A stretch of 64,000 nucleotides of DNA from Aliiglaciecola sp. M165 (lineage in GTDB: Bacteria > Pseudomonadota > Gammaproteobacteria > Enterobacterales > Alteromonadaceae), in contig NZ_VKKH01000002.1 in NCBI RefSeq assembly GCF_007197995.1, positions 558,001 to 622,000 of the forward strand. Reading direction: 5' to 3'. This document shows, one piece after another, positions 24,776-36,808 of the stretch. The position numbers and the translations under genes are program-made. Position 1 is the stretch's first letter. Each line of letters opens with the position of its first letter. Below the pieces are notes generated by a model that had not been told where the DNA came from, ran no database searches, and saw nothing but the letters and a program-made list of their open reading frames with translations.

Positions 24776-24953
24776 CGTTGTCTGGGCCAACATCCATCTC
24801 AACCAAGAACCTCAGAGGAGCTAGCCCTCAATTCTGGCATGCATAGCCTGTATTCTGACATCTTGAATCGTCATTCTGTCGATTGACCCTTGTTAAGCTA
24901 TTGTGAGTCGAATACCTTGCTACTTTGCCATTAGCAAACCCGACAAAGTATTC

Positions 24954-26177
24954 ATGAAACCGATTTCTATTTTAAAATTTTTATCTTGTTTCGCCCTGAT
25001 CATAGCCAGCCAAAGTTTTGCTACGCTGCAAAAATTGTTGCCTGATGATGGTAAGGCAGAAGACCAGTTTAGCTATAGCGTTGCAATTGATGGCAGCACC
25101 GCATTGGTGGGAGCACTTAACGCTGATGTGGATAATATCCAAGACGCGGGGGCAGCCTACGTTTATTCCTTTGGTGATGAAGGTTGGCAGCAGCAAGCAA
25201 AATTAGTCGCCAAGCCAGCGTTTGCTAATGACACACTTGGCGGTAACGTGGCGCTAAAAAATAACATGGCGCTGTTAGGGGTAATAAAAAGAGACGACAA
25301 AGGCGAAGATGCGGGTGCGGTGTTTGCGTTTGAGAAAGAGGCTAAATCATGGTCGCAAAAGCAAATATTAACCGCAAATGATGCTAACGCTGGTGATGCC
25401 TTTGGCCAAAGTATCGCACTTACAACGGAATTTCTTGTTGTAGGCTCTCCTCGCAGCGATTCACCACATAAAGATTCAGGATCAGCTTACGTTTACATTC
25501 GCGATAAAAATACGTGGCGATTTCAAGCCAAACTTACGGCAAAAGACGGAGCGGAAGGCGATTTATTCGGGATCAGTGTTGCCATTGACGGCGAAACTAT
25601 TTTAGTTGGCGCTGACTTGAATGATGAAAAAGCAGAAAAAGCGGGTGCCGTTTATGCCTATGTATTTGACGGTACACAATGGCACCAACAGGCAAAGCTT
25701 ATGGCTGAAGATGGCGCAAATACTGATATCTTTGGCGTCAGAGTCGCGTTGTTTGGCGATACAGCATTAATCTCAGCCAGAAGAGACGATATCGAAAGTG
25801 TTGGCGTAGATGCCGGTTCCGCCTATATATTTGAGCGCACAAATCACAAATGGACGCAAACACAAAAGCTAGTAACCCCAGATGGTAAAGCCGATGACAG
25901 ATTCGGTCGTGGCGTGGCACTAAACCAAGATACGGCTTTAATCAGTGCTATGCACCATGACGCTAATGGAAATAATGCAGGTGCAGTCTATGTGTTCAAA
26001 AAACAACAAAATCAGTGGCGTTATACGTCCAAAATAGTCGCCCTTGATGCCATGCCAGAAGATAGATTAGGTTGGAATATCGCCTTATCAGACAAGCGTG
26101 CCATCGTTGCAGCTCCGCATCGCGACGACAATGGCGATGCATCGGGCGCTGCGTATGTTCTTGATTTGATCGACTAA
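24954..26177 (+). CDS. Exported seven-bladed FG-GAP beta-propeller protein
   Basis: A 407-residue exported protein with signal peptide MKPISILKFLSCFALIIAS. The mature part is seven repeats of about 50 residues, each with a core like DxFGxSVAI, then xTALVGA, and AGAxYVY (DQFSYSVAI, DAFGQSIAL, DLFGISVAI, DIFGVRVAL, DRFGRGVAL, DRLGWNIAL, with one weaker DTLGGNVAL). This is the FG-GAP/integrin-alpha type propeller, usually calcium-linked and surface-exposed. ATG 24954 suits the signal peptide; an in-frame GTG at 24903 is less likely. The ligand is unknown. Confidence 0.85.
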   Translation: MKPISILKFLSCFALIIASQSFATLQKLLPDDGKAEDQFSYSVAIDGSTALVGALNADVDNIQDAGAAYVYSFGDEGWQQQAKLVAKPAFANDTLGGNVALKNNMALLGVIKRDDKGEDAGAVFAFEKEAKSWSQKQILTANDANAGDAFGQSIALTTEFLVVGSPRSDSPHKDSGSAYVYIRDKNTWRFQAKLTAKDGAEGDLFGISVAIDGETILVGADLNDEKAEKAGAVYAYVFDGTQWHQQAKLMAEDGANTDIFGVRVALFGDTALISARRDDIESVGVDAGSAYIFERTNHKWTQTQKLVTPDGKADDRFGRGVALNQDTALISAMHHDANGNNAGAVYVFKKQQNQWRYTSKIVALDAMPEDRLGWNIALSDKRAIVAAPHRDDNGDASGAAYVLDLID

Positions 26178-29760: not shown

Positions 29761-29900
29761 ACAAATATGCATACCTAAAATGCGTTTTTGTCAATTATCC
29801 TACAAAAATTTATAGAATATAATGCCCGCCGCTAAAAACTTTGAATAAGCAAATTAACAATGGCCAAAAGCGCCTAACAATTTTGAATAGGAAAGTAGAA

Positions 29901-30398
29901 ATGAACGTACTAACACGAAAACTCTTATTAACGGGCATACTCTTAACAGCCGCCCAACTAAGCGTTGCAAATACTTTGTCGTTTTCGCTCGGTACAGGTT
30001 ACCCGTTTTTTGTTGTACCAGAAGTTTCGTTATCAAGTGCGGACAATAGTCGACGCTGGCATCTAAATTACAAAGCTGGTCTGGACGACGGGTTTACAAT
30101 TGGTGTTGAACAAGTCATGTTTGATAGTCAGCAACATGCAATGGGTGCAGTGATTGGTGCGATTGGCATTCGAGAGGAAGACACACCCTGTGATGACATT
30201 CCAAGTAATGTGGGTTGTATCGTAGCAACTATTTTTGATGAAGAAACCGTGAATGGCGCAGCAATTAGCTACGGATACTATTTTAACGGATTAAATTCAT
30301 CTGGATGGCACGTCAAATTCGAAGCGGGTTATGGAGAAGGTTCACAAAGCAAAGAAAAGCGTGCAAGCGCCTCAATTCGCTTAAGTTATCAGTTTTAA
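29901..30398 (+). CDS. Exported, probably outer-membrane beta-barrel protein
   Basis: A 165-residue protein with signal peptide (RKLLLTGILLTAAQLSVA). The mature part has alternating polar/hydrophobic strands (LSFSLGTGYPFFVV, WHLNYKAGLDDGFTIGVEQV, ISYGYYFNG, WHVKFEAGYGEG) and ends in ASIRLSYQF, with a terminal Phe as in outer-membrane barrels. One Cys pair (CDDIPSNVGC) lies in a loop. ATG 29901 is preceded by AGGA; a longer frame from 29841 is unlikely. The function is unknown. The next gene is 13 bases away. Confidence 0.7.
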   Translation: MNVLTRKLLLTGILLTAAQLSVANTLSFSLGTGYPFFVVPEVSLSSADNSRRWHLNYKAGLDDGFTIGVEQVMFDSQQHAMGAVIGAIGIREEDTPCDDIPSNVGCIVATIFDEETVNGAAISYGYYFNGLNSSGWHVKFEAGYGEGSQSKEKRASASIRLSYQF

Positions 30399-31039: not shown

Positions 31040-33205
31040 CTAGTCTGTTAGAAAGCCAATTGCAGGATCTTTGTCTACCAACCAGTTTAACTGCCAAGTT
31101 TGCAGGGGGTGAGATTCAAGATAGACTTTGGCTAAATCGGGTTCGTTTGTCAGTAACAAAAGCTTAGCTTTTACTAAGTCTGCGCCGGGTGTATCGAAAT
31201 TTTCGAGATCATATTGGTTAATTTGTGCCTCAAGTAACGCTAGCATCTGCTGCTCTTTTTCACTTCCTTGCTGACAGTAGCAAAAGGCCATGTTCGCCAA
31301 GTGGGAAATTCCCCATGCCATGACGTTGAATTTACCGCGCAAATAGGCATCATCACTAATGACCGATTCATAGTGCATTAGCGATCGAGCACAGTCGTTG
31401 GAAAAGTAGTAATTGAGACCCAGCGCCATTTTCAAAGAGCTATTTTCTGGCCACTGTTGCGCTAAGAATTCTAATTCTTGTAACCAGATATTCAGCTCGT
31501 CATTGTGAAGGTAGATTAAAGATTTGAGCTGATGCTCCAGATAGCCACCTCCTTTGACCAACGCGACCTGTTCCTGTTTTTGCCATGCTGCGTCATATTC
31601 ACCTCGATGAAAATAATCGACAGCGTCGGCTGTGATCATATAAATATTTTTTTCGGGTAACTGCTGCCTTGCAAAGTCCATGTGCTCCAAGGTTTTATCA
31701 GCTTGCATGGTAAATCGATAAAGGTTAGCTAGACCAAGATGACATGCCGGATAGTCAGGGAGCAGAGCAACACAATGTTGGAACTGTTTTAACGCGGCGC
31801 TTAGTTGACCTTTAACGAATAGTGAATCTGCCACCGCAAAATTAGTGATGGCAGACATCGGATTATGCGCAAGCGCAATATTGAAATGATTGAGTGCTTT
31901 AGAATGATTGTCTTGTATCCATAACAAATACCCGTAGTTGTGATGAGCAAGAGCGAGTTTTGGATCAAGTTCAAGTGCGGTTAAAAAAGCTTTTTCAGCC
32001 TGTTCAAACTCCCCAAAGTTAATATGTAGTAGGCCTTGTGCAGCAAATGCAACCGGCATAAATTGGTCGACACCAAGGGCAATATCAATTGCCTTCTGGG
32101 TTGAGGATCTAGCAACTTCTGGGGCTAACAATCGATACTGGTACAGCACCATTTTATTCATCCCAATGGCAATGTGCGCAAGTGCATAATCCGGCTGCAA
32201 CGCCACGGCTTGTTCAAATTCAATCAACGCTTTTTGGATATACTCTGGTGTCGCTTTTGCCGCCATCGCACTGCCACGTAAGAAGTGCATGTAGGCGTCA
32301 CCCAGTTCCGGATGCTTACGTAGTCTGCCAGATGATTGCAACGTATATTCAGGGGCTAACGACTGCACAACTGCCAAACTGATATCTTGCTGCAAGGTAA
32401 AGATTTCTTGTTCCTCAACGTTGAACACTTTTGACCATAAATGGGTACTGTCTTCAACTTTGATAAGCTGCACTGTAATGCGCAAGATGTTTTGATCTTT
32501 CCTGACAGAGCCTTCCAACAGGTAGTTGACGTTTAGCTTGTGTGCAAGAGCTTGAATGTCTAGCCCTTGATCTCGAAACGCGAATGAAGAGGTTCTCGCT
32601 GTCACCGCTAAATCCGGGATCACCGTGAGTTGATGAATAATCTCTTCAACTAATCCATCGGCGAAATATTGGGTGTCTACTTGAGAATGAAAAACATCAA
32701 ACGGTAGCACTGCGATAGACGGTGCGGATTGATTTTTTGTTTTGATGTCAGCAGAATCCAAGGTGATTTTGTCAGTCTGATAAAATCGCCAACTTAAAAC
32801 GCCGACAAGCACTAATACAGACAAAACCAACGCGCTTTTTAACCAAGAAGGTTTGTCAGTTTTTTCATCCGTGATATTACCTTGCTGTAATGGCGACTCG
32901 GCCTGAGCCAACAGCCGATAGCCTTTTTTGGGAACCGTAATAATAATTTGAGGATGATGGGGATCGTCTTCGAGTACCTTACGTAAGTTTGCGATCAGAT
33001 TATAAAGTACATGATCAGCAATAATCTGATTTTTCCAGACTTGTTCAAAGATAAACTCCCGACTGACTACTTCTCCCTCAGCACGGGCCAGTACAATCAG
33101 TAAATCCATTGCCTTAGGTTCGAGTTTTATTCGCTCCTTACCATTTGAAACACTCTGTTCAGACGGAAATACTTGCCATTTACCCAAGTAAAATTCTTTC
33201 AACAT
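31040..33205 (-). CDS. CadC/ToxR-like membrane regulator with TolB-like and TPR domains
   Basis: About 721 residues. An N-terminal winged helix (LKEFYLGKWQVFPSEQSV, then AEGEVVSREFIFEQVWKN and ITVPKKGYRLL) is followed by one membrane helix (SALVLSVLVLVGVLSWRF). A periplasmic region begins SIAVLPFDVFHSQVDTQYFA (TolB/adenylate-cyclase-associated type), then about ten TPR-like repeats (ALIEFEQAVALQPDYALAHI, KALNHFNIALAHNPMSAI). The start is uncertain: ATG 33205 fits the family N terminus, while the frame is open to 33295. Divergent from the dockerin-like gene. Confidence 0.85.
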   Translation of the reverse strand: MLKEFYLGKWQVFPSEQSVSNGKERIKLEPKAMDLLIVLARAEGEVVSREFIFEQVWKNQIIADHVLYNLIANLRKVLEDDPHHPQIIITVPKKGYRLLAQAESPLQQGNITDEKTDKPSWLKSALVLSVLVLVGVLSWRFYQTDKITLDSADIKTKNQSAPSIAVLPFDVFHSQVDTQYFADGLVEEIIHQLTVIPDLAVTARTSSFAFRDQGLDIQALAHKLNVNYLLEGSVRKDQNILRITVQLIKVEDSTHLWSKVFNVEEQEIFTLQQDISLAVVQSLAPEYTLQSSGRLRKHPELGDAYMHFLRGSAMAAKATPEYIQKALIEFEQAVALQPDYALAHIAIGMNKMVLYQYRLLAPEVARSSTQKAIDIALGVDQFMPVAFAAQGLLHINFGEFEQAEKAFLTALELDPKLALAHHNYGYLLWIQDNHSKALNHFNIALAHNPMSAITNFAVADSLFVKGQLSAALKQFQHCVALLPDYPACHLGLANLYRFTMQADKTLEHMDFARQQLPEKNIYMITADAVDYFHRGEYDAAWQKQEQVALVKGGGYLEHQLKSLIYLHNDELNIWLQELEFLAQQWPENSSLKMALGLNYYFSNDCARSLMHYESVISDDAYLRGKFNVMAWGISHLANMAFCYCQQGSEKEQQMLALLEAQINQYDLENFDTPGADLVKAKLLLLTNEPDLAKVYLESHPLQTWQLNWLVDKDPAIGFLTD

Positions 33206-33371
33206 GCGGCTTAACACCCACCCAATTAGTATTGTTGAAATACGGTTCACTAAAAGTATAGCCCTTAGGTAAATATCAACCCATAGATTTTCCATAGGTT
33301 TCCCATAGAACTTTTTGACTGCCTTTGGCTAAGGTTTTGATTGCGACTGAGAAGGGAGAAGGAACAAGACT

Positions 33372-35762
33372 ATGCAGAACCTATTTACACGTTCAATGAG
33401 CACTGCAAGGCGGCAGGTTGTTTTTGCCAAATCACTAATCATTTTCATTTTTTTGATATTGCTGAGTATAAATGCTCAAGCGAAGTTGGTTTTTATTACC
33501 AATGACCCTGCATTTCAAAATGCCACTATTGTGCCGCTTGATGCCGCAAAAGGATTCGCAGCGGGAGTGCAAAATGTGCAATTTACCGAAGGCGGAGTAG
33601 ATTTTGATTTTACCACGGCCAATATCAACGGTTTGTCTGATTTTCGCGGAACGTTGATCTCCTATTTCCCTGAAGGAGTGACTGTTACATTTAGTCAACC
33701 TATGAGCGCGATTGGTTTTCAGTTTGCATTTGCCGAGTGTCAGGGACGTGCAAGATTTATAGGTTCTGCGGCGACCGAAGAACATACCTTTGAATTTGGC
33801 CAAGGTGGTATTTTTGTTGGAGCCGCGGAAATCGGTGACATCACTTCCGTTGAGTTGAACGGCACATGCTTTTTTGCCAATTGGCCTGAGATGCGCTTTG
33901 ATGCCACCACGCCTCCGCCACCACCTACTGAACGTGCCGACCTGTCATTTGATAAATCAGCGCCAAATGTGGCCAGTCAGTTAGATGGATCGATTGATTT
34001 TGATTTAACCGTTACCAACAACGGACCCGACGACGCAACCGGTGTGCAACTGGTAGATTTTCCTCCCGGAGGAATGCAGGTTAATAACAGTACGCCTTCG
34101 ATTCCATTGGTCTCTGCTGGCGGCAAAGTTGTGGTGATGGGAGTGGGCGACCTTGCCAACTCGGATCAGTACACTAACACCCTTAATATGTCGGTTCCGC
34201 CGTTCACTGGGACAGGCGTTGTAACCCAGCACCCCGGGGTGTTTAATTGCAATACCCAACTACTCAATGTTGCCTTGGCCACAGGTAGTTCGATCGATCC
34301 CAATACAACAAATAACTCAGATTTAACTGTGACGCGTTTCGACAAGGCGTCTAGAGCCTCGGTGCCAGAAATTTGTGATAACGGTATCGATGATAATTGT
34401 AATGGACGTGTGGATTGTGGTGATAATGCCTGTTCAAATTCAGCAAATTGTCGACCTCCACGCTTGCTTAATGCCAACAACAACCCACCCTCGATATGCA
34501 ATACCATTAATGGGATCATCATATGTTTGAATAACGGGGGTCCAGCGCCATTCCCAGTTGGTCCAAATCCGGCGCCTGCGCCTCCTCCCCCTCAAGCTTG
34601 TACATTCAGAGACGTACATGGCAGACCCTTTGAAGCTCCGGCATGTTGCTGCTCCTATGGGCCTTGTGATCGTGCCAGATGCGAAAGGCTTGCTGCGCGA
34701 GATCCTAATTTTAAATCCGCCAACCCGCCGGTTAATATCAATGGTTACGGAATCACCCAAGCCGGCAGATTACATGAATACACCATTACCTATGAGAATA
34801 TTGGCAATGCTGATGCAATTGACGTGCGAATATACGATGTGCTTGCGCCAGAGCTAGACGATACAACGCTGCAAATCAATGATGATGGGGTGTATGACGG
34901 AACCATTCGCACTATTACCTGGAGTGACGCGCTTTTACCTCCACAAGAGCCGCGCACCGTATCGTTTAGCATCAACGCCCGAAGTGATTTGCAGCCTGGC
35001 GATAGGATCCGCAATCAGGCGACCATTATCTTCCCCAACGCAGAGCAGCCACGAACTGATACGAATTGGGTGGAACACGCAATAGAAAACCCTGATTTCC
35101 CAGCCGCAGCGGATTTAGGTGTTGTCGAATGTCTGCAAATTGACCCTAACACTGATCTTTATACCGTAGTGCTTTTCAATAAGGGAACAGCATTTGCCCA
35201 CAATGTGAATGCTCAGGTAATAAATCCTCCGCCTGGCATTGTTTTTACTGATGATAGCGCGCGTTTTGGTCGCTCAGATGATACCGACCCCAATGTCATT
35301 GGTACGGTGGTTCCGTTAGGGTCAACTCACAGCATCGATAGTGTTGCATTCACCGCAGATACGCCCGCTTCAGTTTGTAAAGCGCTAAATTGGCGGATCA
35401 GCTACACCAGCTCTGAAGGAGACATCATTGTAGCTGATGTGCAAGCAGCACCCGACGCAGACAGTGATGGTGTAGCGGATATCGATGATAATTGTGTAAA
35501 TACTCCAAATCTGGATCAACGTGATACCGATCAAGATGGGCAAGGGGATGCATGTGAAACTGTCGAACCTGCTCCATGTGGCGATTTAGACGCTGACAAT
35601 GATGTCGATAGAGACGATAAAAACCTGTTTGTCGCTGCACTTAGGTCAGTAGCGGGTGAGGACAGATATTCCACTGAGGCAGACTTTGACGATGATGGTG
35701 ATGTTGATTTCAGTGATTATCAGCAATGGTATCAATGCTACAGAAGCTTTGTTGCGCAATAA
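33372..35762 (+). CDS. Secreted multidomain protein with DUF11, MopE-like, type 3 repeats and dockerin-like C terminus
   Basis: A 796-residue protein with signal peptide (residues 20-37). An N-terminal beta domain (residues 40-170) precedes a proline spacer and a DUF11 domain (ADLSFDKSAPNVASQ). A metal-binding motif ICDNGIDDNCNGRVDC comes next, then a Cys-rich proline stretch (CCCSYGPCDRARC) and a second DUF11 region. A thrombospondin type 3-like calcium repeat follows (DADSDGVADIDDNC, DTDQDGQGDAC). The end carries two calcium-loop/helix units, DADNDVDRDDKNLF and DFDDDGDVDFSDYQQW, like a type I dockerin. GAAGGA precedes the ATG. The next gene has a cohesin-like fold and starts 12 bases later. 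Confidence 0.85.
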   Translation: MQNLFTRSMSTARRQVVFAKSLIIFIFLILLSINAQAKLVFITNDPAFQNATIVPLDAAKGFAAGVQNVQFTEGGVDFDFTTANINGLSDFRGTLISYFPEGVTVTFSQPMSAIGFQFAFAECQGRARFIGSAATEEHTFEFGQGGIFVGAAEIGDITSVELNGTCFFANWPEMRFDATTPPPPPTERADLSFDKSAPNVASQLDGSIDFDLTVTNNGPDDATGVQLVDFPPGGMQVNNSTPSIPLVSAGGKVVVMGVGDLANSDQYTNTLNMSVPPFTGTGVVTQHPGVFNCNTQLLNVALATGSSIDPNTTNNSDLTVTRFDKASRASVPEICDNGIDDNCNGRVDCGDNACSNSANCRPPRLLNANNNPPSICNTINGIIICLNNGGPAPFPVGPNPAPAPPPPQACTFRDVHGRPFEAPACCCSYGPCDRARCERLAARDPNFKSANPPVNINGYGITQAGRLHEYTITYENIGNADAIDVRIYDVLAPELDDTTLQINDDGVYDGTIRTITWSDALLPPQEPRTVSFSINARSDLQPGDRIRNQATIIFPNAEQPRTDTNWVEHAIENPDFPAAADLGVVECLQIDPNTDLYTVVLFNKGTAFAHNVNAQVINPPPGIVFTDDSARFGRSDDTDPNVIGTVVPLGSTHSIDSVAFTADTPASVCKALNWRISYTSSEGDIIVADVQAAPDADSDGVADIDDNCVNTPNLDQRDTDQDGQGDACETVEPAPCGDLDADNDVDRDDKNLFVAALRSVAGEDRYSTEADFDDDGDVDFSDYQQWYQCYRSFVAQ

Positions 35763-35774
35763 AAGGAGACAAAA

Positions 35775-36317
35775 ATGAAGAACAAATTTTGGATCATAAT
35801 GGCGGTACTGATGTTTTTCACAACACAGGCAAATGCCTTGCCGATAACGGCTCTTTTGGTAGACAACCCTAACATCATGGTGGGAGATCAATTCTCAGTT
35901 GAGGTTCGTGTCGATAACGATGTGATGGGTGAGGAATTACTTGCCTTTGGCTTTGATCTGCAAGGAGTTGACCCGTTGCTAAACTATATTGGAGCCAACA
36001 TTGGGCCGGCTTTCCTAGATACGTCTTTTGGGGTGAATAATGTTGCGGGGCTAGCCTTTCCGGGAGTTACTGACACTGACATTTTATTCGCCACTTTAGT
36101 TTTTGATGCGTTGGATGTGGGCGTCGCACAAATCGCTGTGGAAGGAATATTTGATGGCTTCTTTTCTGGCATGTTTTACGAGTTTAGTGGTTTTGATATT
36201 GCCGCTCAAACCAGCGTAACCATAAATCAGCGGCCGCCAGCGGTGCCAGAGCCAGCAGGATTGTTTATCGCCGGGTTAATATTATTTATGTGTATCAGAA
36301 AACGCCCGTTTAACTGA
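35775..36317 (+). CDS. Cohesin-like protein with PEP-CTERM sorting signal
   Basis: A 180-residue exported protein. Signal peptide MKNKFWIIMAVLMFFTTQANA, then a cohesin-like beta domain (NPNIMVGDQFSVEVRVDN; DILFATLVFDALDVGVAQIA). The C terminus is a textbook PEP-CTERM signal: VPEPAGLF, a hydrophobic helix (IAGLILFMCI) and a basic tail RKRPFN, so an exosortase should process it. No exosortase gene is in this window. AAGGAG lies just before the ATG; same operon as the dockerin-like gene. Confidence 0.85.
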   Translation: MKNKFWIIMAVLMFFTTQANALPITALLVDNPNIMVGDQFSVEVRVDNDVMGEELLAFGFDLQGVDPLLNYIGANIGPAFLDTSFGVNNVAGLAFPGVTDTDILFATLVFDALDVGVAQIAVEGIFDGFFSGMFYEFSGFDIAAQTSVTINQRPPAVPEPAGLFIAGLILFMCIRKRPFN

Positions 36318-36491: not shown

Positions 36492-36523
36492 CATTTGTGA
36501 GTACAGATTAGGGGTGGTTGTTT

Positions 36524-36808
36524 ATGGAAACAAGAATTCAGTTTCGTGTAGATGAAGTTACTAAGCGCTTGGCTCAGCAGATGGCTGAAAGCCAGGGACG
36601 TACATTAAGTGATGCTTGCCGAGAATTAACAGAAGAACTTGCGGAAGCTCAGCGGCAAACGATGTTGCAAGACGATTGGTTGACTAAACAAGTCAATTTA
36701 GCGTTTGAGAAGTATGATGCTGGAAAGTCTGTATTTATTGAAAATGAAGATGCGAAGTCGCGTATGGCGCAATTCAAAGCAAAAATCCGAAGCCAGATTT
36801 CTCAATGA
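36524..36808 (+). CDS. RelB/DinJ-type antitoxin
   Basis: A 94-residue protein with a ribbon-helix-helix-like N terminus (METRIQFRVDEVTKRLAQQM, then GRTLSDACRELTEELAEA) and a charged C-terminal tail that would wrap the toxin. ATG 36524 has GGGGTGG upstream; a TTG two codons earlier is less likely. It overlaps the toxin gene by ATGA at 36805-36808, the usual arrangement of these pairs. Confidence 0.82.
   Translation: METRIQFRVDEVTKRLAQQMAESQGRTLSDACRELTEELAEAQRQTMLQDDWLTKQVNLAFEKYDAGKSVFIENEDAKSRMAQFKAKIRSQISQ

Follow-up and report, generated by a model that had tools for sequence, protein, structure and literature searches.

Proteins that carry cohesins or dockerins are known both from cellulosomes and from outside them, and the locus described here resembles each group in part. 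It lies in a 64,000-nucleotide (nt) stretch of the genome of Aliiglaciecola sp. M165 (family Alteromonadaceae, Gammaproteobacteria; contig NZ_VKKH01000002.1, positions 558,001 to 622,000), which we call the window, and consists of two adjacent genes, the first for a passenger protein with a dockerin-like C-terminus and the second for a small cohesin-like protein with a PEP-CTERM-like tail (Table 1). With the type I pairs of cellulosomes (PDB 1ohz, 2vn5, 2y3n, 1g1k) it shares a homologous double F-hand dockerin and the cohesin fold, whereas it differs from them in having one cohesin per carrier, a PEP-CTERM-like tail, adjacent genes, a Gram-negative host and no cellulase among the client proteins scanned. 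Cohesins and dockerins outside cellulosomes are found in Clostridium perfringens (2jh2, 2vo8), Archaeoglobus fulgidus (2xdh) and anaerobic methanotrophic (ANME) archaea (PMC5244752), and a C. perfringens module is the best fold match of our window model; however, the PDB titles and the relevant passages of PMC5244752 mention no one-cohesin, exosortase-sorted carrier beside a dockerin client. According to PMC5244752, a review on methanotrophic archaea that cites Peer et al. (2009) on this point, such modules have been noticed for a long time in genomes outside the cellulosome context, and their role there is not known. PEP-CTERM/exosortase sorting offers a second likeness, in the layout of the tail and in the presence of an exosortase in the genome, but unlike the ordinary case the sorted protein would here act as the socket of a second protein, so that sorting would take place in trans. 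A third is with the ExeM/NucH nucleases, the commonest passenger family (14 of 39 scanned clients; NF033681, NF033680), in which a dockerin C-terminus is found in 89 of the best 150 listed family-level genes as against about 14 with a GlyGly-CTERM-like end.

We consider it highly probable that the pair is a trans-anchoring plug-and-socket, in which an exosortase-sorted single-cohesin socket holds exported proteins tagged with a dockerin. Both proteins would be exported, each beginning with a signal-peptide-like stretch as read from the sequence; the double F-hand module of the passenger would fold on calcium into a dockerin, and this dockerin, whose homology and that of its partner are documented below together with the partner's fold, would bind the cohesin domain of the neighbouring product in a presumably calcium-dependent manner. 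The cohesin protein would then be held through its PEP-CTERM-like tail, recognised and probably processed by an exosortase which is present elsewhere in the genome. Thus the passenger would be sorted in trans by its small partner and not in cis by a tail of its own, and the window pair would be one case of a tether for many unrelated exported proteins in Alteromonadaceae-type and some other gammaproteobacteria.

A controlled test is offered by ExeM, which is matched in 223 of the 295 genomes of the family survey. Among the best 150 listed ExeM places, 89 have a dockerin C-terminus and 61 have none, and a cohesin gene comes next in 72 of the former and 0 of the latter (Fisher test 9e-27, on counts that are not phylogenetically independent). 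Here "next" denotes a core-model match in a same-strand open reading frame (ORF) of at least 100 amino acids (aa) within 1.4 kb after the stop codon, and contig ends truncate a few of the regions (L315, L334, L341). With the enzyme held constant, the neighbouring cohesin therefore tracks the dockerin and not the enzyme. The gap between dockerin ExeM and cohesin is 4–137 nt. Of the 25 genera that have dockerin ExeM, 19 show a cohesin next in one or more cases; dockerin-free ExeM is present in 18 genera, and nine genera have both states. As judged by eye, a GlyGly-CTERM-like tail is present in about 14 of the 61 dockerin-free genes, while the remainder have ends of other kinds; the automatic tail classes are rough (L300 and L237 were misfiled, and L291, L308 and perhaps L220 are GlyGly-CTERM-like), and the figure of about 14 takes this into account. 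GlyGly-CTERM is a cis-sorting signal, and we take it to be the described tail of ExeM. As far as the sequences tell, the two kinds of ends are consistent with alternative sorting routes for one enzyme.

The core cohesin model, which lacks the signal peptide and PEP tail, was used for ExeM and for the other families; as desired it gave no match on four plain PEP-CTERM proteins, and the nine proteins that it matched in that check include members that built it. The raw cohesin tally of 181/295 genomes comes from a model (A1) that includes both signal peptide and PEP tail and is not used as a prevalence. The cohesin-like protein itself is matched at E <= 0.01 in 27 of the 295 genomes, several of the weaker ones being noise on inspection.

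A surface docking pair at this one locus was what the sequence-only reading had proposed, and the pair in fact recurs with differing passengers across the family, far more widely than that. The dockerin profile matches in 153/295 genomes, and lists of the best 150 places each were drawn up for dockerins and cohesins. For at least 75 of the best 150 dockerin places, a listed cohesin place lies no more than 400 nt away; all 75 of these cohesins lie on the same strand downstream of the dockerin, 56 of them at less than 75 nt. Conversely, 94 of the 150 listed cohesins have a dockerin neighbour once the ExeM dockerins are added. At the level of the class, a dockerin match occurs in 51 of 369 genomes, many of them weak. 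The cohesin lies downstream in seven of the 14 best loci (L170–L183) and upstream of an N-terminal dockerin in two, and none was found in five; three of the 14 belong to the window's family, outside of which a cohesin was found at 7/11, one of the four cohesin-less loci there (L180) being close to a contig end. Among 16 weaker loci (L184–L199) the core model found a downstream cohesin in L190 only.

The client scan covered 39 proteins, one of which (L171) carries a dockerin but has no neighbouring cohesin; four near-duplicate pairs had been dropped beforehand (L001, L008, L015, L030). The window client was scanned whole, the others mostly over no more than about 480 aa ahead of the dockerin. 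Besides the nucleases the clients include M9 collagenase, S8 protease (subtilase), sugar dehydrogenase, multicopper oxidase, and PKD and DUF11 proteins. Neither Pfam nor NCBIfam gave a plant cell-wall enzyme domain in the whole window client, and no glycoside hydrolase family of Pfam was found in the scanned parts of the 39. The carbohydrate-type matches among these were CBM_6 in one, the Sde0182 cellulose-binding C-terminal model in eight, as many as match PKD (8), and the MalA alpha-amylase model of NCBIfam in seven.

Dockerins also occur at the other end of proteins. In four very large exported-looking proteins (L349:1-6420, − strand; L350:1932-5999, +; L351:1-5553, −; L352:5478-11972, −) the dockerin directly follows the signal peptide; RHS repeats occur in two of the four, MopE/Ig or PKD domains in the other two. 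In L350–L352 the gene just upstream of the giant one encodes a cohesin, and no cohesin gene was found in the stretch of L349, which is from the window's own genome.

Homology of the two modules to solved structures is seen at the level of the families. A profile of 34 dockerin modules has the solved dockerin 2y3n_B as its top match (7e-13), followed by two chains named just "Serine protease" (8x39, 8x3a), and reaches the solved dockerin 1ohz_B at 2.4e-9. In a profile of 35 cohesins, cohesins rank first (1g1k, 8.8e-6; 2vn5, 1.7e-5), with weaker matches to an immunoglobulin-like chain (5.7e-4), lactoperoxidase and antibody chains. Scanned singly at E <= 0.01, PF00404 matches 30/34 dockerins, PF00963 matches 7/35 cohesins, and the PEP-CTERM family PF07589 matches 18/35 cohesin proteins. 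Both loops of the window module carry calcium ligands at positions 1, 3, 5, 9 and 12, the pattern of type I dockerins, and positions 1 and 12 (four Asp over the two loops) are invariant across the 34 aligned sequences. The dockerin-like end and the cohesin-like next gene named by the sequence-only reading are thus borne out, the former by its two F-hand loops and the family profile, the latter by its family profile and predicted fold.

Two cognate pairs, each read through the stop codon between its genes, were the only chains modelled with AlphaFold. The window pair gave a predicted local distance difference test score (pLDDT) of 87 and a predicted template modelling score (pTM) of 0.71, and the second pair of the same genome 81 and 0.71. 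Foldseek on the window model returned cohesins as the top two PDB matches, and its best matches are mostly cohesins (2jh2, 4ums, 2w1n, 2vo8, 1g1k; 2jh2, 4ums, 2vo8 and 1g1k stand among the best ten), mixed with a cilium protein at rank 3, complement C3c, YcnI and an adhesin domain. By model, Foldseek and the profile match to 1g1k, the window protein has the cohesin fold. In a simple error model with values of our own choosing, pTM would be 0.52–0.59 with the dockerin free and 0.66–0.74 with it docked, which suggests that a pTM of 0.71 needs the dockerin placed against the cohesin, the interface itself not being seen in this score.

Covariation between the partners was examined in 107 pairs, reduced to 89 distinct ones. 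Dockerin and cohesin distances correlate (r 0.65, reached by 0/2000 permutations; r is 0.38 when only dockerins less than 55% identical are compared), but this counts for little, because the shared history of neighbouring genes also predicts it. At the level of positions (effective number of sequences 59.5), two couplings that are at most suggestive link positions 9 and 11 of the second loop with cohesin beta-strand 3 (z 5.1, ranks 6–7), near what we take to be the location of cellulosomal interfaces. The 89 dockerins fall into two classes: 74 are Cys-tailed, with ends of the type CTRxRCA, and 15, that of the window among them, are of a Tyr/Trp class. Position 59 in cohesin strand 3 is Asp or Glu in 37/89 pairs and in 2/15 of the Tyr/Trp class, where Gly is commonest (10/15).

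As for the sorting, the sequence-only reading had called for an exosortase in the genome, and there is one (PF09721, E 8.8e-71, at G000:C26). Across the family an exosortase is found in 142/153 dockerin genomes versus 64/142 of the other genomes, and in 55 of the 57 genomes with a listed pair. Some cohesins (L029:1402-1989, +; L031:1354-1995, −; also L049) bear a GlyGly-CTERM-like in place of a PEP-CTERM tail, as if the socket were transferable to another sorting system.

What happens after sorting bears on the most serious alternative, namely that the two proteins bind but that the role of the cohesin is in export or in loading the matrix, and the complex is freed to an exopolysaccharide matrix or to the medium after exosortase cleavage. 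We know of little that has been established about the fate of PEP-CTERM proteins after exosortase; the neighbours of the exosortase in the window's genome read by eye, with no family search, like an exopolysaccharide cluster, and the flocculation-associated PEP-CTERM model PepA of NCBIfam matches 3/35 cohesins, probably via the tail. All of this would agree with release, but the GlyGly-CTERM-like ends of about 14/61 dockerin-free ExeM suggest a role in retention, without being decisive, and we regard release as possible and rather unlikely.

Several observations weigh against the plug-and-socket interpretation. Taken singly, the window proteins fall short of the Pfam families: the passenger scores 12.4 bits against the dockerin family PF00404 (curated cut-off 22.9), the cohesin-like protein gives no match to PF00963, and the tail scores 15.4 bits against PF07589 (cut-off 20.7), so that of the PEP-CTERM signal claimed by the sequence-only reading the layout stands and the family assignment falls below the curated cut-off. 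Moreover, the PEP tails of the two closest orthologues (L003, L004) are degenerate, and with the sub-threshold motif this leaves cleavage of the window tail not certain. The dockerin profile also matches EF-hand proteins such as calmodulin, from 3.6e-8, and in the covariation a signal-peptide column and tail columns are likewise among the best 25 couplings. The counts, moreover, are not phylogenetically independent. No exosortase was found in 2/57 pair genomes and 11/153 dockerin genomes. Partners are not always adjacent either: 56/150 listed cohesins are without a neighbouring dockerin after the list was enlarged (two of them, G183 and G121, do have a dockerin in reverse order or further off), no cohesin gene was found downstream of a passenger paralogue ending in a dockerin (L113:4536-6134, +), and 17/89 dockerin ExeM genes lack an adjacent cohesin, including all nine of the window's genus, which would need a cohesin encoded elsewhere, such as that on C29 in the window's genome. 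If the F-hand module were a mere calcium-stabilised cap and the cohesin-like protein an unrelated adhesin sharing the operon, the sub-threshold scores, the thrombospondin-like calcium repeat preceding the module and the dockerin genes without cohesin neighbours would all be explained; yet such a cap would leave the ExeM contrast (72/89 versus 0/61) unaccounted for, as well as the recurrence of the pair with unrelated passengers and, in reversed order, with N-terminal dockerins, and we hold it to be very improbable. Because of the family profiles, the fold match and the adjacency in relatives, the pair is far beyond chance despite the sub-threshold evidence from single sequences.

Within its own genome (4.6 Mb, 29 contigs) the window pair is not alone, and the further dockerins and cohesins that the sequence-only reading suggested looking for were found, as a second pair and two more dockerin places. 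The genome has four dockerin places and four cohesin matches, two of the latter being among the listed best. The second dockerin gene has another cohesin gene after it (C29), which exceeds the PF00963 cut-off (24.8 versus 24.1 bits); the third dockerin (C24), above the PF00404 cut-off, forms the C-terminus of an ExeM-type nuclease whose gene has no adjacent cohesin; and the fourth (C27) is N-terminal in a very large protein with RHS repeats. These numbers, and a single cohesin gene between two dockerin genes in L175:2-3174 (+), might recall a cellulosome-like scaffold in which several dockerin proteins share one carrier in a multi-enzyme complex, but in the 35 pairs extracted the cohesin proteins are 173–231 aa long, with room for one cohesin each, and each pair consists of a single dockerin gene adjacent to a single cohesin gene, which, as far as these adjacent genes tell, makes a shared scaffold very improbable. 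Membership in a cellulosome was also rejected for the window pair, with one cohesin domain in 180 aa, no multi-cohesin scaffoldin and clients other than cell-wall enzymes.

Returning to the plug-and-socket interpretation, we think it likely, with less assurance than for the pair itself, that it represents a modular form of trans-sorting in gammaproteobacteria, where exosortase-sorted single-cohesin sockets encoded beside their clients would replace cis tags and fix the clients to the cell or its matrix, and where the dockerin cassette would fit either end of nucleases, proteases, oxidases and giant RHS-repeat proteins. The function of PEP-CTERM proteins is, to our knowledge, mostly obscure, and if true the pairing gives both these proteins and the non-cellulosomal cohesins and dockerins a testable job, as a calcium-dependent tether by which marine-type bacteria would fix their extracellular nucleases and proteases and their giant surface proteins. 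New dockerin–cohesin specificities of a compact, adjacent-gene kind would come with it. In the 5.39 million openly licensed papers searched, subscription journals being mostly outside them, we found no description of PEP-CTERM together with cohesin and/or dockerin, nor of a dockerin with "extracellular nuclease", and dockerin with exosortase only in PMC5244752. Hence the general tethering mode looks undescribed in the searchable literature, which is a narrower statement than that it is not in print.

The positions of the three ORFs and the 12-base gap agree exactly with those of the sequence-only reading.

Table 1. The regulator, passenger and cohesin genes of the window and their features (positions counted from the first letter of the window)
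Feature	Position	Strand	Basis
Regulator gene, CadC/HilA-like winged helix with tetratricopeptide repeats (TPRs)	31040..33295	-	ORF; Trans_reg_C 7.9e-20 and TPRs (Pfam)
Secreted passenger protein, 796 aa, dockerin-like C-terminus	33372..35762	+	ORF; Pfam DUF11, DUF7619, weak TSP3
DUF11 domain, aa 190-317	33939..34322	+	PF01345, whole-protein E 1.3e-22
DUF7619 domain, aa 444-559	34701..35048	+	PF24595, E 2.8e-13
Weak thrombospondin type 3 (TSP3) repeat, aa 695-716	35454..35519	+	PF02412, E 0.017, below cut-off
Dockerin-like module, aa 733-796	35568..35759	+	Alignments A2, A3; family profile against solved dockerins
First F-hand calcium loop, DLDADNDVDRDD	35583..35618	+	Sequence; Asp at 1, 3, 5, 9, 12
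Second F-hand calcium loop, DFDDDGDVDFSD	35682..35717	+	Sequence; Asp at 1, 3, 5, 9, 12
12-nt intergenic stretch beginning AAGGAGA, likely ribosome-binding site	35763..35774	+	Sequence
Single-cohesin protein, 180 aa, signal-peptide-like start, PEP-CTERM-like tail	35775..36317	+	ORF; relatives
Cohesin domain, about aa 22-155	35838..36239	+	Family profile; AlphaFold model against 2jh2, 4ums, 2vo8
PEP-CTERM-like sorting tail: VPEPAG, hydrophobic stretch, RKR	36240..36314	+	PF07589 at aa 156-177, sub-threshold

The divergent CadC-like regulator noted earlier from the sequence is indeed present and keeps its place in two orthologous loci, where homologues 56% and 51% identical are divergent from the orthologous pair (L112/L040 and L111/L041). 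A further homologue (37%) lies beside the N-terminal-dockerin locus L352. Altogether, homologues were found at five of the 20 loci searched, from three genomes, and none at the other 15, many of which have short flanks. From this arrangement of genes the regulator is a plausible candidate controller of the pair.

Elsewhere in the window, an exported-looking protein of 185 aa with no Pfam or NCBIfam match is encoded at 29841-30398 (+) and a 424-aa protein with seven FG-GAP_2 stretches at 24903-26177 (+). Directly after the pair, at 36518-36808 (+), lies a gene for a RelB-like antitoxin-type protein (weak matches).

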